Shown here: one piece after another, positions 1 through 64,000 of the stretch
Layout of the letters: each line of letters begins with the position of its first letter
Numbering within the stretch: the stretch's first letter is position 1
Source of the DNA: Marchantia polymorpha subsp. ruderalis
Taxonomy: Eukaryota > Streptophyta > Marchantiopsida > Marchantiales > Marchantiaceae
Reading direction: 5' to 3'
NCBI GenBank assembly: GCA_037833965.1
Contig: AP031356.1
Location: 6,966,501-7,030,500, forward strand
DNA: 64,000 nt
Translations under genes and position numbers: made by a program
Notes under the pieces: model-generated
Database searches by the model: none
Told to the model about the DNA's origin: nothing
Seen by the model: the letters and a program-made list of their open reading frames with translations, nothing else

Positions 1-720
1 TTTCCAACTTTTTGCAGTTCAATGTCATTAAGAAAGAAAGAATGTCATGTGTTCCCTATGAACAAGATGTGGACAATTTTATGTATTTGATAGTATGCAT
101 GAGGTCTTATATTGCTCTAGTGATGGCAAGGTGAGCATGAACATGTCAAATCCAGCAAAGATTCATTGAAAAGTAGTGAAATGTATTCTCATATATTTGA
201 AGAGTATTATGGATTATGGTTTATTGTTTGATGGTTTATTGTACAATGTCAAATCCTTGTTGGGCTACGTTGATACTGACTACGTACAAGAGCTGGACAA
301 AAGTAGATATACAATTAGGTACACGTTTAGATTTAGTGATGAAAGCATTAATTGGAGATTTATCTTGCCGAAGTGCATAGCTCAATCTACACAAGAAGTT
401 GAATATGTGGCGCCAGAAGCAACGAAGAAAACTACTCCATTAGACAAACTTATCATAGAGATGGGATTGAAATAAGGCATGGTCAACTTTCATAGCCAGA
501 ATGATCTACATTTGGATGCGAATCAGGTTATGGACAGAAAAGTGAAGCATGTCGATTTCATGTATCATTTTATCAGATAAAGAGTTTTTGATAAAAGTAT
601 TGAGCTTGTCAAGATAGAGAGTAAACTCAATCTAGTTGATGTGTTGATCAAAGTTATTCTTTTGAAGAGTTTCATGAGACATTGTGCTACTATGCAGGTT
701 TTGCAAGAGTATTAGCAAAA
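1..720 (+). mobile_element. Decayed Ty1/Copia polyprotein fragment (3' end of pol)
   Basis: Translated pieces resemble the end of a Copia polyprotein. A segment ending in NPAKIHW-like residues followed by YLKSIMDYGL matches the linker before RNase H, GYVDTDYVQELDK matches the Copia RNase H start, and KVKHVDFMYHFIR followed by NLVDVLIK matches its C-terminal part. The element continues off the left edge of the window. It is a fossil with several breaks and no intact reading frame. I could not define its 3' LTR in the AT-rich DNA that follows. Confidence 0.75.
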
Positions 721-1976: not shown

Positions 1977-4900
1977 TCAAGCAGCCGCAGGTTTAACGCT
2001 GGCAGCTCTGGTTGCCGCAGGAGGGGCGGGGGTCGCAGGTTTGATGCTGGCCGCGCGACTCGCAGCGGCACCCAGAACAGCGTCGGCAGCGGGCTTCACG
2101 CTGGCGGCTCGGGTCGCGGCAGGGGCTGCTGCCGGGGCCTCGCCCGCGGGCTTCACGCTGGCAGCCCTCATCGGAGCCGCGGGCTTCATGCTCGGGGCTC
2201 GAGTCGCAGCCCCCGGCGGGGGGGCTGGATCTGCCGCGACCGGCCTTACGCTTGCCGCTCTCGTCGCGACCGGGATCGGATCTGCCGCGACCGGCCTGAC
2301 GCTTGCAGCTCGCGTCGCGGCCGGGGCTGGATCTGCCGCGAACGGCCTGACGCTTGCAGCTCTCGTCGCGGACGGGGCTGGATCTGCCGCGACCGGCCTG
2401 ACGCTTGCCGCTCTCGTCGCGGCGGCAGGAGCTGGCGCCCCTGCGGTCGCAGGCCTGAAGCTGGCGGCTCTCGCCGGCGGCGGAGGAGGCGGCAGCAGCT
2501 CTGCCTCCAAGTCGCGCCACAGGATCTCGTCCGTAACGTCTTCCACCTGCACCTCCTCCACGGGAGGAGGCAGGGGCTGCGGATTCTTCAGTATCAAATA
2601 TTGCGCAAGATAGTCCACTGGATTTTCCGGCCTGTTCGAGCACCTCGCCGGACAAATCGACCTACGCATTAGCATTAACATTTGACGACTCTTCTGTGAT
2701 TCAGGGAGTGTGCGTCAGACCTCGATGACCACAATCGGTCATCGAGGTTCGAATGCATCCTAGCGCTGCAGGAAGTGCATTCTAAACTCTGATGCAGATT
2801 TTGCAGAGTACTAATATTCCAGATGGCCCAAAGATTGTGTGTGCAGCGATGAGATTAGAATATTGCGATGAGAAACGATCAGAGCAGCGTGAGCATGGAG
2901 CGAGTTTCCGTGGCCTGGCCGTGAATTTGGCAGGCCGTTCTGATCTTTCGATCTCCCTACGAGAAGAATGCAGCGAAGGTGAATCTGGTGAGACATTCTT
3001 CAGTGCAGTTTTCAGAGTCGTGGCGAGTTATTAATTTGGAAGGAAGGTGATTGGTGATCTGGCCGTACCTCTCAACGGCCAGGATCTGCAAGCCTTTCAG
3101 CAGCAATGGAACGACTGTCGAATCCTGCAGCACAGAAGCAGATTAGTATCTCTGGGATTCTTCAGCTCGAGACTCAGAAACGGCGAATGCACTCGGTTCA
3201 GGGTGCATTCACTTCTACACAGATGTCACTTGGGAGCTCTTAATACAGCACAGCAATCACTTCAGGCGAGTCAATATAGATAGTAATATGCTCTATGGCT
3301 GGAGGTTTTGATTCAGATATCGAATGCTTTACTTTCCAATCATTTCAAAAATATTGCCAGCATAGAATTGCAAGTTAGCTCTTGTTTCTATTCCTTGGTT
3401 TCTCTTGTGAAGTTTGATTTAAATTTTTCGTGCCGAGCAATTTCATTTTTATTATTACGTTCGTCACGAGCTGGAAAGCCTCGTAATAACAGTCTAATAT
3501 GGATGGCTCAGTGGAAAGATCTGAGTAGGCAGTCGTCAATCAAAGGAAGTGTAGGAACTGGGGACTACCCTGAGGCATAGTACCACGTACCAGATATTCC
3601 CGAATCGGAGCTGCTTTCAGCTCGAGCCTTGCCGCCTCCTCTTCAGCGATTCTAGCTGCTTCCAGTTCCTGCGAAGCAAGAGCCACAATTGAAATACCAG
3701 TTGCGCCCATCGTAATTGTGAAGCAGAAGCGTGTAATCACAAGAGGGACTCGAACATCAAGAGCCTTAGGATGCAGACATCCTCTCTATGATAGTGACTT
3801 GCAAATCGTATCCCATTGCTTTGCAGATGACAGAACGATCCCATGATTCTGGACCTGCGTTCCAATTGCGTTTTTTGTGAGCATTATCAACGATGCCTAG
3901 AGCTGCACTGCAGTGTCTCTCTCGTTCGCCTCTAATTTATTACTAGCATAGAAGCTCGTCCACGAATGTTTCTATTTCCTCTCTTGAACTATTGCGAAAG
4001 GATCATCTGCTGAGATTGGCTTTCGTTGTCAGCATCTTCATCATCATCATCGGCTGAGATGTTCAAATTGACAGTCGGTCATTTCTACACGTCATATCGG
4101 CCTCGTCCAGTCCCTAACACTCCTCGCATGCAGATGTCTGCCTTCGCGGCAAGAGCTAATGCTGGTATTGTCAGAACCTGCACTGAACATTGAATTCTAG
4201 TGCTCTGAAGTACACGACTCCCTCGTTGTGGAATTCAAACTGCAACCGGAACTCCATAGCTGGCCCGCTACAAAACGTGCTGCATCTGCCGAGAGAGAGG
4301 ATGTCGAGAGAAATCTCTTGCAGGAGCCACGATCCGACACTGGCGGCAGCTGAAACAAGTCCAGATCCTAGACATTGAACGGACGGCATAGCACAGCATA
4401 GCACGGCAGGGCATGGTGGGCTCTGACCACAAAAGGAAATCGGATTTGAGCACAAGCGATCCTTTAAATACCTCTTCGTGCACGTCAAACCAGAATTCCC
4501 TCGGCTGCCAACCGATCCTGGGCTTCTTGTACACGATCTGATTCCACGGTAGGAACGCCTGTGGAGAGGTCGGGTGGTGGGGGGAGTGCATGCACGCAGA
4601 ATGGGCAGCGTTGCAGCAGAATCAGGGGCAAGTCTAGAAGAAACCTCGGGGGCCGTCAAATTCAGCAGCAGTCCATCGAGCATGCCAAGACAAAGAGCCT
4701 AGCGAAGCAAAGATTGGGCACGAGAGAACCGATTGAACGAGCAGAGCAGAGGGCGAAGAAACCTCAGGAGTCGGGCCCGCGGGGGGCTCGGGCGGGGCTT
4801 CGGGAGCCGCCGCCGTAGCCCCAGCCCCAGCCCCAGCCCCCGGAGCCGCCGGGGCTCCTCCTTTCAGCAACGACGCCCTCGGCACGCCCGCGGGGGCTGC

Positions 4901-4981
4901 GGCTCCTCCCTTCAGCGACGCCCTGGACCCGGTCTCCGCACCCGTGCTCGGCCCCGACGACGACCCTTTGGACGACGCCAT
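1977..4981 (-). CDS. Dpy-30/RIIa-motif protein with C-terminal RAASxKP repeats (probable flagellar protein)
   Basis: Seven exons (4763-4981, 4472-4558, 4178-4239, 3799-3907, 3591-3668, 3069-3124, 1977-2631) give 421 residues, with every intron GT-AG and phase-consistent. The ATG at 4981 follows an in-frame stop. Residues 1-73 are low-complexity with SRASLKGG and PRASLLKGG. Residues 74-159 are a conserved-looking globular part (PWNQIVYKKPRIGW, FRALEFNVQC). Residues 160-178 are an acidic/basic helix (ELEAARIAEEEAA). Residues 180-222 form a Dpy-30 motif: PIREYL, then STVVPLLLKGLQ, then RPENPVDYLAQYL. After a proline run, residues 258-421 carry ten R-A-(A/P)-S-x-(K/R)-P repeats. Dpy-30 motifs dimerise like PKA regulatory subunits and occur in adenylate kinase 7, radial-spoke proteins and COMPASS. 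The pattern here resembles the ciliary proteins more than the short COMPASS subunit. A role in sperm flagella is inference. Exons 3 and 4 are the least certain. Confidence 0.78.
1980..2471 (-). repeat. Coding minisatellite, about 51-bp units (RAASxKP array)
   Basis: Inside the last exon of the Dpy-30 gene, units of about 51 bp encode R-A-A-S-V-R-P-V-A-A-D-P-A-P with spacers of variable length. Five copies read RAAS(V/F)RP and five read RA(A/P)S(V/M/I)KP. The upstream, more regular block differs by single substitutions per unit; the downstream block is more diverged. Confidence 0.9.
4819..4841 (-). repeat. GGGGCT hexamer run in exon 1 of the Dpy-30 gene
   Basis: Four G-runs separated by CT on the minus strand, encoding a Gly-Ala run. 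The run fits a G-quadruplex pattern. The same hexamer recurs at 21449-21464, 23290-23312 and 24068-24100. Confidence 0.8.
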
Positions 4982-7661
4982 TCCCTTCCGCTTGCCCCCG
5001 GCCAACGGTCATTCCGCTCACGCCAGTCTGAGCAGCAGCCAGCAGATTGCAACGCTGTGTCAGTACCCTCGTGGGCTCAAATCGTGTCCAGATTCTCGAT
5101 TCTCACTCGGCTCACTGCGCCGATTCATTCATTTGATCCGAAAGAATTCTCCGATGGCAACGTATCTTCGATTCGATTCTGTGCGAATCGAAGATCCGTT
5201 GCCATCGAAGAATTCTTTCGAATCAAAATTCGGCCGATTAAATCCTCTCGTTCGGAAAATTCACCAGTCGCAATGGACATCAGTTGCTTTCGTCGAGGCG
5301 GACCTTCTGACGACGGAGGTCGAGAGATGCGAGGGACTGGCTCTTGTGCGCTACGTTAGAAACAATTCTATGCATCCCACGGCCACTGGTTCCGATGGAC
5401 TCGATGAATTCGTTCGTTTCAATGCAGGATCGGAAGACGAAGGGGTTGATTGGAAAGCTTGCAGCATCGTACCTCACGCGGCGTCTCAGCTTGTCGAGGA
5501 GTTCTGAAGAGATTCGACCTACGACTACGGAGAACATCGGAGACTTGGCTTCGACCATGAGGAAGAAAGAGCTTTCGGTCAAGTCGCAATTATTTCTCTC
5601 GATCGCTGCCATGCACGTGAACCGTTCGCACCGTTTCCATGCCCCCGAACGAGGCCCGTACCTCTCCAGCCTTCATGAATGTAATAATACAGCACATGTG
5701 AAGGAGTTCGAAGTTCGAACCTTGCACCGGGTTCTGCTTCATATCTTGCCCATCTTCCGCCTGGACTCGCGTGAGAGCTGGACGTCCATTCAGTCTCAAT
5801 GTCCTGAGAAAGAGCGCAGTGTAAAATAAAACCAAATGCTGTCTAAAATCTGCTCTTCTGTGTGGGTACGATCCCATTCCCATTCCACGACGGCTGATGG
5901 ACGTATTTCAGAGGTCTGTACATGAGTGTATAGATGTGTTCAGATCAAGGGATAATCAAATCGATGCGCTCCTTTTATCCACCGAATGCTCCATCCGGCC
6001 TTTCTTCATCATCATCCGGGTGCAATGAGCCTGATTCGATCGTCATTATCACAAATTGGACATTTAATCATGATGGTATGGCAGTTTCCGGCTCGCGCGC
6101 ATCGAACGAGCTCTCATCGTTCTTCAGCTCTTGCGGTGACTCACTCAGACAATCTGATTTTATGTTCCTTTAGTCTCTCATCCGTTGGAATGATTACAGC
6201 ATGAATTCAGCTCGTCATATGGACAGGAAGACGATCACTCGAGCTTCGAATGCGAGATGAACCCCCGGATCTCCCTCCGAAGCATCGAGTGGAGCTTCTT
6301 CAGGTATCCGCAAGAGCTGCAAGTGTGGTCTCGCCTCGCCAGCTCTGGGACAGTCCTGACCAATTCATCGTCCTTCAACTCAAGCTCTTGTGAGAGAGAG
6401 GGTGAGGATCAGACACTGACTGCAAAAGTCAAGATCTAAATGCTGTGATAGTCAACTTTCCAGCTTTTCAGGAAGGTACATAACCAGCTCGTTTTGACCA
6501 TATCCGTTGTTGTTTATTAATCTCTGTCGTTCGTTGATGATGAGAGCCTCACTCACTCCACGTGAGATTGGAATGTGAGGCTTGTACATTGTGAGCGCTT
6601 GACGGGGGGTAATGTCAAAGGCACCGGACAAGCGGGTCATGAAGGAATATGAGAAAAAAATGGTTATGGATGCTGACATATTATCTAATTCAGAATAAAA
6701 TAATGTCCAGAATAGTATACTGCAGTAGTAGTAGCAGGCAGAGGTGGCAGCTGTGTGCTAGTATAGCGAAGTGGATCCCTTCCTTCTTTTAATTTCTATT
6801 TATGTACGAAGTGGTCATGGTGGAATATCGCATACTATAATGCATCAGCCTAAATGAAAAGAGCCCGCTGCGTATATTATCCTGGGAATTTTTTATGTTA
6901 AATGCTTTTGATATTGATAAATAACGACTTTTTATATTGGCCCTAAAATCAAGCACCCTATCTCTCTCTAATGAAACGAACATACACTAGTTCCAAATGA
7001 CGACTCACTATTGTAGACACTTTTTGATTACCTTTTGGTTAAGAGTGATCATTAGAATGGTACTACTTCATTAAGTATTACGAGGATGAAACCATAGGGT
7101 TAACATGGAAGTATGGGAAATAGCATAACGATTGCAACAATACTTTGAAACTATCTAGATTACGAAGTCTCCAAGCAATTTTGGCTTGGAAAAAAGATTG
7201 ACATGTTCATATATTCGTATGCTTAGCACTACCAAGAAATGTTCGCGGAGAAATAAACATGTTGACTAAACTAATTCATACATCTAGCAAAGAAAGTTGA
7301 TAATAAAAAGAGTTGAGTTCTCTCTGCACATCATTATTCGGAGAGACCTTGATTGATGCTCTCCATCCTATTACTTGTACGGTCATGTTTACCATGCCAC
7401 ATTAAATTTCACCTACTTAATATCTATTTTTATTTTAATAATCCTCAAGCCAAACCAACGTTGGAATTCCACTTTCTTACAGCATAGCAAACACTACATC
7501 CTTCTCATAATGATTGCATGCCTAACTATTTTCGTATAAATACACTAAGCATTGAAATGCTGTCATACTCTAACATGATAAACAAAGATTCAGATTATGA
7601 AATAAAAATTATTCATTGATGTACAAAATAAAATTGAAAAATATGAGTCAAAAGGCCTTGA
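4982..7661. other. Intergenic region upstream of the Dpy-30 gene
   Basis: The first kilobase is GC-balanced and probably holds the promoter and leader of the minus-strand gene. Several open frames of 80-190 codons overlap on both strands between 4730 and 5890, but none shows a recognisable domain or codon pattern. From about 6700 the DNA becomes AT-rich. Apart from the foldback at 5133-5226 I see no defined feature. Confidence 0.5.
5133..5226. repeat. Long foldback (43-bp arms, 8-nt loop)
   Basis: The segment 5133-5175 and the reverse complement of 5184-5226 agree at 40 of 43 positions, leaving an 8-nt loop at 5176-5183. The arms are mixed-sequence, not simple repeat. It lies about 150 bp upstream of the Dpy-30 start codon. 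It could be a microRNA-like precursor or the remnant of a small inverted-repeat element. Confidence 0.85.
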
Positions 7662-20994: not shown

Positions 20995-22533
20995 ATGCGG
21001 AAGCTGCCGGTTACGTGGTTAGTCAGCAAGGCCGAGCGTGAACTGGCCCTCCGTCCTCGCACTCCGTTCGTGCAGAAGGTGCACGGCGAGAACGGCGCTC
21101 CCCTTCCGCTGACTCGACCGGAGGCCCAAGGACGAGAAACCAAGTTGCGTCCCAAGAAGGGTCCGGTCCGGACTCAGCTAAACCTCAACCAAGTGTAAGG
21201 AACTCACCCTACATCCACGAAGCGAGATCAGAGGCGAAACCGCTGCTCTCACCGAGCCGGGGGCGGACTGGAAAAATTGACAAGTCTTCCCGACCACTTC
21301 CGGTAAGCCCATTATTTGAATGGGCGATGGTGGGCCCATGACGTCCAAATCGATGCGTTGCGTTCCGTGGTCCCCGGGTCCTTCGAATTGGGGCCTCGAC
21401 CGCAGTGCGAATATGCTCGGTAGCCACGGTATTGCCCGTCCCCTGCCTGGGGCTGGGGCTGGGGCCCGGAAGCGAAGGTAAATATTAGCTCGGCTCGGCC
21501 CCACTCCTATTGCCGGCGGCCGGTCACCCCCACGACTAGAGCGGCCCAAAGACTAGGCCCCGTGCGTTTTCGGGGACCGTGCCCCGGGCCGTGCGGGTGG
21601 ACTCTGCTCGGGGAGAGCTCGGGTCTCGGGCGTCGGGGCTAGCGTTTACCGGCCCGGTCCGGTGCGGTGTGGTTGGAGCTGCTTGTGTTCGATTCGGGGG
21701 CTGGGGGTAGCGGTGCAGGGGGGCGATGGGGGGTTTGCAGCCTGCCCTGCCCCGCTGGCAGGCTGGAGCGACTTTGCTGCCCTTCTTTGGGGCGACATCG
21801 AGCGCAAGCCCGAGGGGGGAGAGGGGGAGAGGAGGGGGGGTTGGGACCTATCTGTCGAGAAAGTGACAGGAGCGCGAGGGAGAAGCTTGCGCATGTGAGC
21901 TGGGCTCAGATCGGACCGTGAAAGCAGCACGAATGAACCGAAGGCCCGTTGGAGGACAATGTGCAATGAGGGTCCGTGGCAGTTGACGAGCAGCTGATTC
22001 CCCCGCTCGGTCAGACACGAGAGCACGGGAAGTACGAGCTCCCGTCACGTCGCTGGTGATGGTGATGGTGATGGAATCGGAAATCCACTGCCCTCCTCTC
22101 TTGCGCGGTCGGTGTCTGCCCCCTCTGGCAGCAACGCCGATCGCCGTCGTGATTACTCGCGCTCTTATTAGTCCTGCGCTCTGGTATTAATTAGATCGAT
22201 CCATCGATCGATGGCGGGCTGGCTGGCTGGCCGCCTGGCTCGATGCTTAGATAGGCGCTCGGTCGGTCGCTCCGATGGACGAATGCGCAATTTAATGTAG
22301 AAGTTAGTAGCGGCAACGGCACGCTTTGAACGATTAAGGTAACGATAAATTAGACGGCAGTATCGGCCGAGGCAGCGACGGAGCGGATTTGCGTACATAG
22401 TACGAATTGAAATTGGGATCACGAGTACGACCATTTAGGAGCGGTTTGGACACGGCCAAAGCGTGACGAGCAGGAGCAGGAGCAGGACGAGTTTTAGGTT
22501 TAGGATAAAGTGGAGAAGAAGAGGAAGAAGAGG
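20995..22533 (+). promoter_or_regulatory. GC-rich promoter and leader of the CCCH gene
   Basis: High GC with overlapping open frames on both strands and no protein match. The island ends at the start codon of the CCCH protein at 22534, which an in-frame TAG precedes by about 30 bp. Confidence 0.5.
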
Positions 22534-25500
22534 ATGGCGATGCCGCGGGGGATTATGGTGCTCAGGGACAGGAGGGACCGAATTTTAATCCAGCAGCAGC
22601 AGCAGCAGGGTCTTGGGCTGCCGCCGGGCCCCGGGTGCCCGCCTCTGCACCCCGGCCTCTTCAACCGCCCGCCCAATCGCTTCGACGGCGAGGACGACGA
22701 GTTCGCCCGAATTCTGCCTCTCCCCGGGGCCGTAGTCTGGGACGGGCTCCAGCAGCTCCAGCATCAACATCAACATCAGCAGCAGCAGCAAGCGCTGGCT
22801 GGTGTGATGCTGCGGCGGAGGATGAATGCGCAGCACATGCAGCAGCAACAGCAGCAGCAGCACCTGATCCCTGCGGCCATGCTGCACGCGCAGCAGCGGG
22901 CCTGCCAGGTCCAGGTGCAGGTCCAGGTCCAGCCGCAGGAGTGGGACGGAGGGCCATCGCATCCCGCGCAGGTGGTGCACGAGGCCATGAGGCGCAGGAC
23001 GGCGGGCCTCGTGGTCGATGGCGACTTCCTCGCCGGGCTGCGGCACCGAGAGGAGATGAGCGATCTGCGCAACGCCGAGCAGCAGCAACAGCAGCACCTC
23101 AAGCTCGCGTCTAGGGTATCGCACGAGAAAATGATGGCAGAGAGCGAGTACCTGCGCATCGCCTCGCGCGCCTCGCACGAGAAGCTCATCGAGCGCGACC
23201 ACCAACTGAAGAACGCGTATCGTGCTTCCCACGAGAAGATCATCGCCGAGAAAGAGTATTTGAAGAAGGTGGTGGTGCGCGCGCCTCTGCCCCAGCCCCA
23301 GCCCCAGCCCCCGCCTCTGCCCCTGCCCCTGCCGCTCGCCCATTCTTCGCTCGGCGAGAAGCCCCTCGAAGGCGAGCCCCGCCCCTCTCCCGTGGCGGAC
23401 ATGGCTAGGCCCTTCCGCAACCCCCCGCTGCAAGCCCTCGATCCCCACTTCGCCTGCTGGGACGAGGGCGCCATGCGGGACTCGGATCTGGTGATCCGCT
23501 ACGGAGCCCGGCAGTCAGCAGCCGCGCGGGCGCAAGAGGGCGCGGCCGATGCGTCCATCCCCCCGGGGTTCCAGTCCGTCATCATGTCGTGCAAGCGCCC
23601 CAGGGACGAGGACGGCGAGTTCGATCGGCCCCAACGGCTGCAGCACCAGCGCCCGCGCCGGCCCCCCGACCCCGATCTGCAGCCCCAGCCGCAGCCCCAG
23701 CAGCAGCCCCAAGCGCTCTACGGCAGCTCGCGCTTCGTCGACGAGGACCACGAGGAGGGGCAGGTTACCCCTCCGCAATCGAGCATCCCCGCGTACCACC
23801 GCGCGGAACCCCTCGGGCCGCCGGGATTCTATCGACCCGAGCTCGAAGCCGCCTCTCGTCGCCTTACCCCTACCCCTGCCCCTGCCCCTCCGTCTCAGGA
23901 GCCCCCGTCCGCCATCGCTCCTCCGTTCCAGGACGGGCGAGATCCGTTGCTGCTGCGACCGCGGTCGAGCGCCTCCAGACCTCCAGGGGCTTCGAGAGCA
24001 TCGTCGGCAGGAGGAGGAGCGGGCGGAGGGAGCGATGCGGGGCTCCCGTCGAGGCCGTGCTCGAGCAGGGGGGTTGGGGTTGGGGCTGGGGCTGCAGGGG
24101 CTAGAATTCTGGTCGTCGAATCTCCTCCTCCGTCCCGCAGAGCGCTACCGCCACCTCCGCCCCCGCCCCTGCCCCTGCCCCCGGCCCCGCTCTCTTCCAG
24201 ACTCCTATCGAGCCTCGACTCTCCCACGCGACGGCCTCCTTCGCCGACGAGCTCATCGAGACCGGGACGGGATCTCGAGTCGTTCCTGGGCGCAGGGCCA
24301 TTCAAGGGCGAGATTCTCGTTCCCAAGCGAGAACGCAAGGACGATCGATCGATCGATCAGCAGCAGCAGCAGCAGCAGCAGCAGAGATTGTCTTTCGGCG
24401 GGGTGGAAGCCAATGCATCCGATGCGTCGCATGTGCGGCGGAGAGCGGGCAAGGATTCGGACCCTCGCAGCAGCAGCAGCAGCAGGCATGCGGAAGCGAG
24501 AGCGCTGGAGAGAGCCGAGCGGGCGGACAGGGATTATGAAGTCAGCGAACGCAGGAAGAGGCCTCACCGCCACCACCACCACCACCATCATCACGACGAG
24601 GAGCAACTGCAGGAGAGGGCTGTTAGGCATCACTTTTCTACGAGGAAGTCGAGGATTCTCCCCGATCCGGACGGGCGACCATCGAAAGGCTCGAGGTTGG
24701 ACGATGGCCTCAAGCTCAAGTCCGCAAGACATGCCGCAAGCACGGCCAAGGACGGCCGCGAGGCCCGCGAGATGACCATTTCTGTGCATAAACACGGCCA
24801 GCGCACCGTGAAAGTCGAGGATTCTTCCAAATCGCGAGCCCATGTCGGTCGCCATTCGCACCATCATTATCATGAACGAGCAGGGCTCAGAGACGGAGGA
24901 TCGGACTCCGCGATTAAGGACATAGAGCGTTTGAGTGAGAACAGGAGTAAGGAGTGTGATCAATTGTTGTTGTCGTCGTCGTCGTCGTCGTTAGCAGGCC
25001 AGGATAGAGGTTTAGTCGGGTCTCAATTGTCCAAGGAGCCCGGCAATTCTCGGCACTCTCGTGGCTCTTCTCCGTCGCCTCAGGAGCGGCAGGCTCTGCT
25101 GCCCCCGCACCAAATCAAAAAAGAAATCATTCCTCTGAGCGACGCCCATGGAGAGCCCGAATTGCGCCCGCGCGCTCCAGTTTTATCTCGGCTGAGCACT
25201 CCCAAGCCCCCCGATTCTTCTTTGGCCCCCAAGCCTCGACTCAGGGCGGAGATGCTCGGCCACGACAAGAATAATAGCAAAGCTGTATTAGCGAGCGCCA
25301 GCAGTGGTGCGCCTCCTCCTCACACGACCAAAAGTGTCGGTGGGAAGGTGAAATCCGATCGTCTTGTTGTCGTGGACGGCGGCTCCGAGAGGCCTCTCGT
25401 CTCGAAGCAAGTTGTTGCCAGTTTAGGGGCAGTCGTCGTCGTCGAAGAAAAGACCTCGACCACGCCCACAAGTTTACGAACTCTTTCAGGAAAGGCCGGC

Positions 25501-28500
25501 AAGGTTCAAGCGACGAGGGAGGAGCTAAATTCCCAGCTCAGTGCACGATTGTTAAAGCTTCAGATCCCCGACGGCTCCAAAGGGGACTCGGACGAGGCTG
25601 TGCAGACGAGGTATCCCTCGATTAGCATTTCTCCAAATGGTATCAAGAATGTGTATTCGCCCCTTCAGAAAGTGGGGCCTTCGGACAATCTGCTGCGAGA
25701 CTCCAGGAACATCATGATGCACAAAGCTGCTGACAATCTGCAGCTGCGCCTGGAGGGGCCTGGAGGTCTGTCCACGGCCGATCTGTTGGCTCCCTCTGCT
25801 CCTGTGACAGCCACTGATCTCTCTATTGAAGTTACCGAGCAGTCTCCTGGTTGCAGACCCGCACCGAAATTGATCTTCACTGGGCACAAGTCCGACCAAA
25901 GCTCTAAGGAAGCTTCTTCTCCTCAGGCCGACCTTCAATTGAAGGAGTTTCCTGGGCTGGTAGGGCCGAGAATTTCAGAATCAGCGAAAATGTCTTTGGA
26001 AAAGCCCGATTGCAGGAAATGTATTGCACCTATGTTGTCGAAAGTGCCCCTAGCTGACACTGCACGGAGGCTTGAACTCACAGAGGCAAGGAACCGGACG
26101 TCTCAGTTCATCGTTGCTCCCGAGGGGTCGCCCGGTTCTCCTCAATGGAACGTGTTCGAGAATAAGATGAGAAGCTTTGCCAAACATTGTGAAACTCTTA
26201 GAAAGCCGAGCGCCGGCCCAAGTATTCTGTCTATGTGCTTACCTTCTGTACAACCTGTCATCAAGTCTTTACGTGAGCCGGCTGAGCTCGCCGAGTTTAG
26301 TCAAGCGCTCTCATTATCTACTACTTCTGATGTATCTGGAGTTTTCGAAAAAGAAAAGGAAGTTCGAAACCTTGCGATCGTAAATCACTTCCGAGGGCAC
26401 GAGGAGGAGAAAGCAGAATTGACCCTGGTCACACCATCCGCACCGAAGGAAGTTCGACTTTTTGGAGCAAATTTGGTTGCGCCAGTATTGGAACGGGTTG
26501 AGCCTTCATCAAAGACCATGGATGCTGTTGTGAAGCCTGTGAAGCCTGCTGAGCCTGAAATTCGCACGGTTTTAGCCGTGGCAGCCGCAGCAGCTGAGGA
26601 TGTGCAGCCTGCCGATCCTTCACAGCGGATAAAGGAACCAGCTGCGCCTCAAGACACGGCCGTGGCTCAGGCTGCCGAGGCAGTTTCATGTATGGGAACT
26701 ATTGAGGAAGCAGTGCACGCAAAAAATTTAGCGGAAACTAAAGAACAATCATCTCTCTCACTTGAGGATCCACAATTAGCCGATCCGATTGCACCTCAAG
26801 ATGCTTCCGAGGTGCAAGCTCAGTCTAGTGAAGTAAATTTACAGCAGGAAAAACAGGTTGTGACAGCAGCACCTCTACCAAAGGGTGCGCCTCCTATAGT
26901 TCGACAGCAAAGCTCATCCCGTGTAGCTGGAGCTCATACATGGCTGCGATGTGGTGGTACCTCTAGCGCTACGCCAGCCAACTCAGTGATGGGATTCAGG
27001 AGCACCCCTTCAGCCACTGGCGGAGTCCCTCAACCTGCTGTTGCTAGAGGCAGAGGTACTCAGGGAGCTGCGTATGTCCGTAAAGGTAACAGCCTTGTAA
27101 GAGCGCCAGGAGCTGTCACTTTGCCTTCGGGAGCTCCTCCTCCCAGTATGCTTGGACAGATGAGGCCTACGATGGTCAATCAGGGTCCATCCCAAAAGCC
27201 TCCTATTTTCAGGAATACTTTTTTTCCAACTCATGACAATGCGAAGAGTTTGCAGCCAGCTCTCAGAAAATCCTTGGTTCCTTCATCTGAGAGTGCTGGC
27301 GCTATTGCACCTGTGCCCAGGTCTGCCATTGTACCCAGTGGTGGCCTTTCCCAGGGCAACAATGGGCCTGTCTCAGAAACAGGCATTTCTTCGGGTAGGC
27401 CCAAAACTCCACCTCAAGGTGCGTTAGGGGTCGGATCTCTTATGAAAACAGGTTTTGTATTATCAGCATCTACATTGCCGCAAATTGGAACAGGCTCAAG
27501 ACTTCAAATACCTGTCGGTGACGACTTCGGTGATAATATAGCAGAAGCGAGTAACACGTCCCCCGGCGCTAAGACGCTTCCCGTGGTTATACCGAGCAAT
27601 TCTGTTAATCTCCTTCCTGGACCGAACAATATGGTGTACGTCCGTAGGAAAGCAAATCAACTTGTTGTCGCTCCGTGTCCACAACCTGTTGACATGTCGC
27701 TTGCAGAAAATCAAGCTGCCAACAAGCAGCTCATGCCAGACTTATACATCAAGAGAAAAACCAATCAACTGGTCCGAAACAGTGTTCTCAAAGGAAATGG
27801 AAATTCAAGTTTCGTACAGGCTCTTCTTGGGAATGGGCCGCCAAAGGATCTCACAGAGCAAGGGAGCCGTAATTCCATTCTTTACAAGAAAATGAGGCTG
27901 GGCAGAGGTCATTATTTCCTCTTTAACTGCCCGATCAGAATCTTTGTTCCAACTGACGAGCATGTCCAGTCGGTCTCTTGCTTACCTTCTATGAAACGAA
28001 CTAACTTTGCTTCGAGTCCTAGATGCACATTTTATTTGACTGCTTGATGGGAACACATTCCGTTTTTCCGGCCTGATGGTGCATTTCATTTGACTCTTTG
28101 TGTGCCTTATTTGATTCTGTCAATTGACAACACCTCTTTGTCATAGCAGTGTTGAGACAAAAAAAAGGGCTTACAGGGCGTTCATCCTGGGTATGGACAT
28201 TAAGCGGTGCAACCGTAAGTCATGACTTGGATACTAGTAGTGGGCATGTGCGGAAACCAGCACCATCGTTGTTTCCTTGGAAGAGGCACAGCCTCACGAC
28301 CAGTATCAGGTCACGCAGAAACAGAACTCTGCCTGAGGGAAAGAAAGGCTCTCTGCTGTTTGTCATGAGGTATTGACAACAGAACCCTCTGGTCAAGTTG
28401 CACTGCTCCAGTGGGGCTCTTTCACAAATTTTATTTCCTGTAATGTTAATCAATCTCGAAGCCCTCTCCACATTGCTGGTCTATGCAAGTGACTACCGAA

Positions 28501-31470: not shown

Positions 31471-32087
31471 CATTTCAATATTACGATCATCGGACACAAA
31501 ACTTAGTTCGTCTATGAATAGCTTGTAGATTTTTCATCCAATGTTTTGGCGGTGATAAATATTCCGCTTGTTTATGTGTTTTGTCCTGGATGATTCAGTG
31601 CAACAAGAAACACACGTATGTGTGTCCCACTCATGCAGCTACAGGAGAGTGCTCTGATCAGGCTACTTGCAAGTTTCATCATCCCAAGAAGAAAGGGAAG
31701 GTCGAAATAGCAATAACTCGAAAACTAGGCCTTAAGCGCAAGAGAAGATATTTTTGTTCCACTGACTCAGAAACTGGTGGAAAGTCAGTTAATGAAAATT
31801 GTGCTGCTGCTAGTTCGGTACCTGAAGACGACCTTCCTGTCAAGGAAGAGAAAGTTGTCGACGAGGAACTCGCAGAGTTTATTAGCCTTGCCAATACAGA
31901 AGAACAAGACGGTGACACGAAGGTGTCTCCTGAAACACAGAAGCCATGGTCTTCTTTCACGAGGCCAGGAGTTCCTTCGTTTATCAGAAAAGAAACTGTC
32001 GAAGAGGAATCAGGATCGGCAGAAGAAGTCGAGCGGTGGATCAAACCAACTTTCTTGTTCAAGGTGACATCACCCGCCGCTAGCTGA
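22534..32087 (+). CDS. ZC3H3: ZC3H3/AtC3H7-type protein with five CCCH zinc fingers
   Basis: Ten exons: 22534-27907, 28177-28369, 28559-28709, 28959-29076, 30083-30163, 30260-30353, 30486-30756, 31103-31145, 31263-31366, 31599-32087, giving about 2305 residues. The C-terminal part has five tandem C-x7/8-C-x4/6-C-x3-H fingers (residues about 2048-2172), e.g. CQFFTRFGKC, CTKFLKGNC, CSFFLEGLC. They are preceded by YLRVGNGNQLVRDP and ASEKVRWSLHHAR, which match the plant protein (Arabidopsis At1g21570, C3H7) closely. Human ZC3H3 works in polyadenylation and mRNA export from the nucleus; a similar RNA-binding role is inferred. Exon 1 is unusual: 5.4 kb of mostly disordered sequence with runs of Gln, His, Ser and Pro, three RxSHEK repeats (residues about 190-245), and three earlier copies of the Y-x-R/K-x-N-x-L-V motif. 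It is far longer than the relatives I know. Confidence 0.93.
23290..23312 (+). repeat. CCCCAG hexamer run in CCCH exon 1
   Basis: Same hexamer as at 4819-4841 but in a different frame, here encoding Pro-Gln. It can form a G-quadruplex on the minus strand. Confidence 0.8.
24068..24100 (+). repeat. GGGGTT/GGGGCT run in CCCH exon 1
   Basis: Five runs of four or more G, encoding a Gly/Ala/Val stretch. Confidence 0.8.
24358..24384 (+). repeat. (CAG)9 coding microsatellite
   Basis: Nine perfect CAG codons in CCCH exon 1, encoding polyglutamine. Shorter CAG runs occur at 22591 and 22780-22860. Confidence 0.95.
31438..31472 (+). repeat. (GGTCAA)n hexamer array in CCCH intron 9
   Basis: Nearly six perfect copies of GGTCAA within the intron 31367-31598. 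Confidence 0.95.
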
Positions 32088-62200: not shown

Positions 62201-64000
62201 ACCAAGAAAAGAAAGCCAGATGGTTAGCCTTTCGCCTTCTGGTCGGCAACAACAAGCATGCTCGGAGCTCTGCTCATTGTGTGAAGTGAGGGTCAAGGGT
62301 TTGCCAAAATAATCAACCAACCAGGGAGGGTGTTCCTTCAAATTCTCGTATCAGATGAGTTCACACTTGTGCAAGCGAGTTAAAACGTCAGATGAAATTG
62401 AAGGCAACTCTTTGACAAGGGTAGGCACTGTAAATCTGGTGCCCACATTTAAGCACTTTCCACAACAATCAATGTGATGTTCAGGCTACTGTTATGAGTA
62501 GAAAGAGAGTAATGCAAGATTGTCCACAGTTGGCAATACAAGCTGCATAATGGAGCTATCGATACCGATGGCTCTAACCATTTTGGAAGCCACACAGAAA
62601 GTTTCAAACCTGGTAGCATAAAGACTTCCCGGCCCCAGTTGGAAGCATGACCATAGTGGACTGCAAGGCCAGGATGCGCTTGGTTGCTTCCAGCTGGCCT
62701 GCTCGAAAGGCCTTGAATCCAAACGCCATATCAAGAACTTCCAGCAAGTTCTCATTTGAAGGATTATGCAGCACCCTTTCCAACACCTCAGAAAGCCCAG
62801 GAGGCAGATCAATCTTCGAGTCTTCGACGGGGTCGGCTACAGTAAATCCAGCTTTAGCGCAAATGTCAATGTCTCTCACAGCAAATCTGGTCCTGTTAGA
62901 CCTTGAGCCCTTTTTCTCGGAGCCACCGGCATTGTCAACTTCATCTGCATGCAAGTGGTCTTGCTCCAAAGCATCATTGTCCTCATCCAAAGCAGGCTTC
63001 CGACTCTTCTTCCCGCGAAACCCTCTTCGACCATATGCTCCAGGCTTTTTAAAGCGTGTTTTGTTGACAAACTTGCGTCTTCCGCCACCCCTTCCATTCA
63101 AATTCAGTTTCACAAAGTTGTTCCTTTCACCGGGCTTCACGGCCTGGGTGTGAACTCTATTCGGATGTGAGATTCTGGTAGAAATGGTTTTGGTCTTCTG
63201 AGTGGTGGACCGTCTTTGAAGCGCCTTTGGCTTTGCCCACGAGAACTCCTCACTTGGCTTATCACATTTGGTTCTTTTACTGCTGGTCGTGGAGGGCATG
63301 TTGTTGACATCGCCAATTGAGACAACTGGCACTGACTTTGACGAATCAGTCTTCTCTCGAAACGAGAGGTCAGCCGACGGGTACTCATCACAGCTCGTAG
63401 TTGTACTCTCGCATGATGCATTCTGCAGGACGACAGGAGGAACTGCGTCTTCTCGGGACCTCTTCCTCACAGCTTTGCTTGAAGCGATTGAGCTCGGAGC
63501 ATGGTTATCACCTGGATGATGTTTGTGTTGAGTCTTCTCTGAGGAAGATAGGAGAGTTTCTTCTGACCTGACTGCAGATCTTCCACTTCTAGTTCTCGTT
63601 CTGATGGATGTTGTGGAAGTGAGAGTGACTACTTTACCACTTCTCAAATTAATGGAAGATCTCGAACAATGAGATAACTCCACATCACCTCCTTCCGCAT
63701 TGAAGTGAGATCCCTCCTCTTCTCCTTTACTCGACGTGTTCAGCTTCGTCTCCTCGACAGGTTCACACGCTCCTGCCACCTTCTCCTTTTGTTTCTTTCC
63801 ACGTATGCTCCCCTCCACGATCTCTACACGGGAGCCATTGCACGATCCTTGGCTATCTAAGGCTGCACTGAGGCGCGAAATCAGAGTTGCTTTGTTACCG
63901 ACCAAGGAAAGGCCCCGCTTGAGGAGCATCTGTTTTAGAACCACGACAGTCAACTTCTGAAGGGCTTTCCCTGACAAATCTCTGTCTAGATCTTGGACTG
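56292..64000 (-). CDS. RECQL5: RECQL5-type RecQ DNA helicase with N-terminal SAP domain (5' end outside window)
   Basis: Nineteen exons: 62610 to window end, 62076-62195, 61683-61736, 61247-61359, 60806-61015, 60512-60590, 60172-60225, 59998-60072, 59851-59904, 59455-59499, 59184-59278, 58759-58894, 58169-58323, 57844-57946, 57447-57575, 57124-57317, 56868-56892, 56611-56726, 56292-56397. At least 1076 residues are visible and exon 1 is open to the edge. Counting from 63977, residues 5-40 form a SAP DNA-binding domain (VLKQMLLKRGL, GNKATLISRL). A basic linker with NFVKLNLNGR and the helicase core follow: Walker A PTGAGKSLCYQ (446-456), DEAH (544), AMTATA, FGMGLDK, ETGRAGRDG (725). The C terminus (NFLRADIK, WGKYEGVDF) matches Arabidopsis RECQL5. 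RecQ helicases unwind DNA 3'-5' in repair and recombination. Intron 5 appears to be GC-AG. Confidence 0.94.

Follow-up and report, generated by a model that had tools for sequence, protein, structure and literature searches.

The window, a 64,000-nucleotide stretch of the Marchantia polymorpha subsp. ruderalis genome (C7:6966501-7030500), carries a multi-exon gene on its minus strand, delineated from reading frames and splice sites, with an ATG at 4981 and a stop codon ending at 1977. A sequence-only reading had placed the gene at exactly these ends (1977..4981), but with seven exons and 421 residues; the model that is probably best supported by the sequence has five exons and a product of 364 residues (Table 1). 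From N to C terminus, the product consists of a head, a tryptophan segment, a charged helix, a Dpy-30 domain and a basic tail with ten heptads. That reading had also described a charged helix ahead of the Dpy-30 motif and a repeat tail behind it, and both are present. The head encoded by exon 1 is Ala/Pro/Gly-rich, contains RASLK and RASLLK, and is probably disordered. Exon 2 is bounded by the acceptor CTCCACAG/GCG and the donor GAG/GTATTT (slash, exon boundary), and the acceptor of exon 5, GAACAG/GCCGG, gives the canonical spacing of the Dpy-30 motif (..AVERPENPVDYL.. / ...LAVERPENPVDYLAQYL...). An alternative acceptor at 2661, in place of 2631, was rejected: it puts the extra residues SICPARCSN inside the motif.

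Table 1. Features of the DPY30-type gene (window coordinates) and of related loci elsewhere in the genome (contig coordinates)
Feature	Position	Strand	Description
Exon 1	4763..4981	-	73 codons, phase 0 end, donor GAG/GTTTC
Exon 2	4472..4558	-	29 codons, AFLPWNQIVYKKPRIGWQPREFWFDVHEE, phase 0 both sides
Rejected candidate exon	4178..4251	-	FRLQFEFHNEGVVYFRALEFNVQC (FRLQFEFHNEGVVYF...), probably part of intron 2 (4471-3669)
Exon 3 (charged helix)	3591..3668	-	ELEAARIAEEEAARLELKAAPIREYL, phase 0 both sides; motif piece PIREYL
Exon 4	3069..3124	-	DSTVVPLLLKGLQILAVE and two bases of next codon; mid Dpy-30 motif, piece VVPLLLKGL
Exon 5	1977..2631	-	PENPVDYLAQYLILKNPQ..., acidic linker, heptad-repeat tail, stop; motif piece PENPVDYLAQYL from 2631
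Dpy-30 domain, residues 124-163	2583..3605	-	PF05186, across exons 3-5
Ten R[AP][AP]S[VFIM][RK]P heptads	1989..2471	-	Pattern search of product
DNA repeat array	2221-2422		Period 51, 4.0 copies
C6 paralogue (L001/L006)	C6:21774933-21775112	-	Second DPY30-type gene
ASH2 homologue (L014)	C2:8594917-8595120	-	E 1.7e-14 to human ASH2L query

Other reading frames share the window. An 1847-codon open frame (22504-28044, plus strand) is Gln/Pro/Arg-rich and matches no Pfam family up to E 0.01. A minus-strand frame (62607-63998) encodes a SAP domain (2.2e-7); the sequence after it, FRAGQLEATKRIL...LPTGAGKSLCYQV, resembles by eye the beginning of a RecQ-type helicase extending past the open frame. A CCCH zinc finger frame lies at 31518-32084 (plus strand; PF00642, E 2.1e-4), and what appears by eye to be a remnant of a copia-type polyprotein lies at 170-475 (plus strand; no Pfam match up to E 0.01). 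Elsewhere in the genome, the LOB family, to our knowledge plant-specific, gives 57 matches, some with internal stops; five of them score identically (3.9e-27), lie within about 470 kb on the minus strand of C7 (14806036-15274933) and are possibly recent copies of one gene.

Judged from its sequence, the gene is a real member of the DPY30 family. The Dpy-30 motif announced by the sequence-only reading, whose pieces lie on three exons, is borne out far above chance: PF05186 scores 59.7 bits, where the cut-off is 22 (Pfam, E about 2.2e-16 to 2.4e-16). The second of the two Pfam families found up to E 1 reaches 13.6 bits, far under its cut-off of 26, and the RIIa domain PF02197 has no match in the product up to the same E value. 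A search of the PDB yields 20 distinct sequences at E up to 0.01. The top match among those listed is the DPY30 of the Chlamydomonas central apparatus (7n6g_4I, 65.6 bits, 6.1e-17), followed by several constructs of human DPY30 (best 54.8 bits, 1.3e-13), AK7 (39.7 bits), yeast Sdc1 (30.1 bits) and NME5 (22.5 bits); a ‘Dpy-30 motif protein’ (9nw3) is also found. Stretches common to the Marchantia and Chlamydomonas proteins include KAAPIREYL/AAAPIRQYL and ERPENPV/ERPDNPV, and in both of them NPQP comes right after the domain. Human DPY30 and yeast Sdc1 belong to the same domain family and their groove leucines align with the window protein, but their scores are lower than that of Chlamydomonas DPY30. 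In the alignment, the leucines corresponding to L65, L66 and L69 of human DPY30, which we take to be the residues that dock partners, are conserved in the product. The main difference is one of size, since a typical DPY30 has ∼100 residues and a single domain (chains of 99 and 110 residues, the latter in Chlamydomonas), whereas the window protein, with its long head and its basic tail of ten heptads, has 364; the small single-domain form is common in the family and not strictly defining. Within this DPY30-type protein, the repeat tail alone stands out as unusual.

The genome (241,466,482 bases in nine contigs) contains a second DPY30-type gene on C6, with a frame that reads MSDKEEKK...FVELWFDDPVEGEAAQKLAMELRESIELKALPIRKFL... 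and aligns without gap to EFWFDVHEE/ELEAARIAEEEAARLELKAAPIREYL of the window gene when exon 2 joins exon 3 directly. The E[FL]WFD motif, the helix and the Dpy-30 domain align throughout without gap, but the paralogue differs by a Lys/Asp/Glu-rich head, the lack of a heptad tail and a matched frame without intron. Its top PDB match is also the 7n6g DPY30 (56.8 bits). When the Chlamydomonas fragment is searched against all six frames of the genome, the paralogue ranks first with 57.9 bits, and the window gene comes second with 27.9 bits over one exon only, because it is split by introns. By sequence, the C6 paralogue is thus a nearly equal candidate for the central apparatus and the two genes are not separable; it could be a heterodimer partner of the window protein or itself the true central-apparatus DPY30. 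Two more Dpy-30 matches in the genome resemble, by eye, an RSP2/DYDC-like protein (L002) and another short Dpy-30 protein (L003). Profile searches of the genome can miss intron-split genes, and PF05186 indeed missed the window gene; the RIIa family gives no match in the genome in a weak search in which the controls gave none either.

Comparison with the C6 paralogue bears on the N-terminal part of the product, where the sequence-only reading saw an unrecognized globular domain. Only one strong-looking extra reading was found for added N-terminal sequence, namely the candidate exon inside intron 2, which translates plausibly and in phase with exon 2; no convincing in-phase follow-on exon was found between it and exon 3. 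The part of the product before PIREYL was aligned with the 60 residues that precede PIRKFL in the paralogue, and scores were compared with 2000 shuffles. Without the candidate, the alignment scores 48, a value matched by 3 of 2000 shuffles; with it, a 5-residue match is left, with a score of 28 matched by 312 of 2000. The candidate has no Pfam match, and its acceptor is purine-rich and weak-looking by eye. Its GC content (0.46) is like that of intron 2 (0.48), compared with 0.54–0.78 in the exons, but GC alone is not decisive because intron 1 stands at 0.57. Given the broken alignment and the weak-looking acceptor, the candidate is probably intronic and part of intron 2, a case that leans mainly on one paralogue. 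It is therefore quite improbable that the seven-exon model is correct and that the helix follows a new N-terminal domain; the globular part is probably an artefact of intron sequence counted as an exon. Of the domain order first proposed, the succession of helix, Dpy-30 and repeat tail stands, and the unknown domain in front of it probably falls, since the paralogue alignment breaks when the candidate is included.

The tail consists of heptads of the RAASVR/KP type spaced 11–20 residues apart, and is markedly basic (20 K+R and 6 D+E in residues 200–364). Part of it probably arose by tandem duplication, as the DNA contains a 51-base array in four copies. Silent changes between copies are frequent both in the heptads (0.687 per site) and in the spacers (0.717). 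Amino acid changes amount to 0.101 per site in the heptads (10 copies) against 0.412 in the next five residues (nine copies), the heptad value being lowered by construction because the heptads were picked by pattern. The spacing of the heptads leaves no two-unit gap where a lost copy could fit. Collectively, the rarity of amino acid changes in the heptads, the similar levels of silent change and the lack of such a gap are the reasons why the heptads appear constrained at the sequence level. The tail occurs nowhere else in the genome, the gene itself being the sole match at E up to 0.001. Each heptad contains R-x-x-S, a minimal site for basophilic kinases.

In our estimate, the odds are about even (∼0.5) that the gene encodes a DPY30-family dimerization and docking protein of the sperm axoneme, most likely acting as a dimer on a helix of the PF6/SPAG17 type. 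In Chlamydomonas, each PF6 complex contains two DPY30 copies; these complexes occur in both C1a and C1e, at the outermost surface of the central apparatus, which is described there as matching the radial spokes in geometry (PMC9113940, in part). A review places DPY30 in the C1a-c-e projection (PMC7999657, in part), and in mouse sperm the heads of the C1a projection are made of SPAG17–DPY30 (PMC12297659, in part). The Marchantia genome retains a C1a component, CLAMP (C1a-32 family PF14769), with one match over positions 31–80 of 99 (E 3.2e-8). RSP3 is represented by four matches within 2 kb of C7 (the best at E 3.1e-15), of which one falls below the cut-off and one contains a stop. A flagellar role is probably the likelier one, because the central-apparatus DPY30 tops the PDB matches, RSP3 and CLAMP are present and the match to ASH2 ends early, the last being a weak test made by eye. 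The assignment to the sperm flagellum predicted in the sequence-only reading is partly supported. The male germline offers no signal at the level of promoter motifs: AACCGTY, presumably the site of a male-germline MYB, occurs five times in the window against 11.04 expected, with one site, at 5620, upstream of the gene. Searches of the available literature returned no paper linking Dpy-30/DPY30 with Marchantia flagella or with Marchantia, and the five papers listed, of 4,593 found by a broader search, did not mention DPY30.

Two other functions come into consideration, both rather unlikely. The protein might be the plant DPY30/Sdc1 subunit of COMPASS, a nuclear dimer that supports H3K4 methylation while bound to the C-terminal ASH2 helix. 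The matches to human DPY30 and yeast Sdc1 are compatible with this, the genome contains an ASH2 homologue, and, according to the part of PMC6528313 available, Arabidopsis appears to have conserved every structural component of yeast COMPASS; yet the plant components named in the accessible parts of PMC6528313 and PMC9824250 are WDR5a, RBL and ASH2R, with no plant DPY30, and the words DPY30 and Sdc1 are absent from PMC9824250. The ASH2 homologue matches the human ASH2L query over positions 20–82 of 115, short by eye of the DPY30-binding helix, and at the position of that helix in human ASH2L its frame reads on as a Lys/Pro-rich tail instead. A nuclear role of DPY30 needs an ASH2 that carries the DPY30-binding helix. 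The identity of the homologue rests on the alignment and on its upstream frame read by eye, a procedure that could miss a downstream exon; Pfam recognizes no family in the frame, and a second, weak ASH2 match on C7 (E 0.00655, query 26–75) ends even earlier. On the whole, an axonemal subunit is favoured over a COMPASS subunit, but axonemal and nuclear DPY30 are not separable by similarity and one gene may serve both.

With comparably low probability, the protein could be axonemal and belong to the radial spokes, like AK7 or DYDC2, instead of to the central apparatus. NME5 is a radial-spoke Dpy-30 protein, and its Dpy-30 domain and that of AK7 are among the PDB matches, although both score below the central-apparatus DPY30. 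RIIa or DPY30 domains are known to dock onto CFAP91 in RS3 (PMC11779644, in part). Against a spoke location, the product gives no match to an adenylate or nucleoside diphosphate kinase domain of the AK7 or NME5/RSP23 type (Pfam up to E 1), and the RSP2/DYDC-like gene, so labelled by eye, seems to be present separately.

If the protein is the docking subunit of the central apparatus, its Dpy-30 helices are expected from homology to pair into a two-fold dimer, in which the C6 paralogue may take part. By analogy with the Chlamydomonas and mouse structures, this dimer would clamp an amphipathic helix belonging to a large scaffold (PF6/SPAG17 of C1a and C1e being the most likely one), with both the head and the tail of basic repeats hanging off the dimer. 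The ten R-x-x-S heptads would most likely provide flexible basic points of contact, which phosphorylation may control. It is tempting, if highly speculative, to see in the tail a charge switch on the outer C1a/C1e face, in which phosphorylation of the heptads would shift the tail from a net charge of about +14 towards negative values. The electrostatic interaction of the central apparatus with the radial spokes, as proposed for Chlamydomonas, would thereby be tuned, providing a bryophyte-specific way to control the sperm beat. A search for a cAMP link (CAPE) to these sites gave no PF00211 match in the genome, though 5 of 14 controls matched, and the link is given no weight here; the word PKA is absent from the text of PMC8115329.

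Should the protein indeed be a central-apparatus DPY30, a docking subunit would have gained a long repeat tail with constrained-looking heptads. If the observation on ASH2 holds, it can also be tested whether flagella are the only use for which land plants retained DPY30; in that case DPY30 should be lost together with motile sperm.
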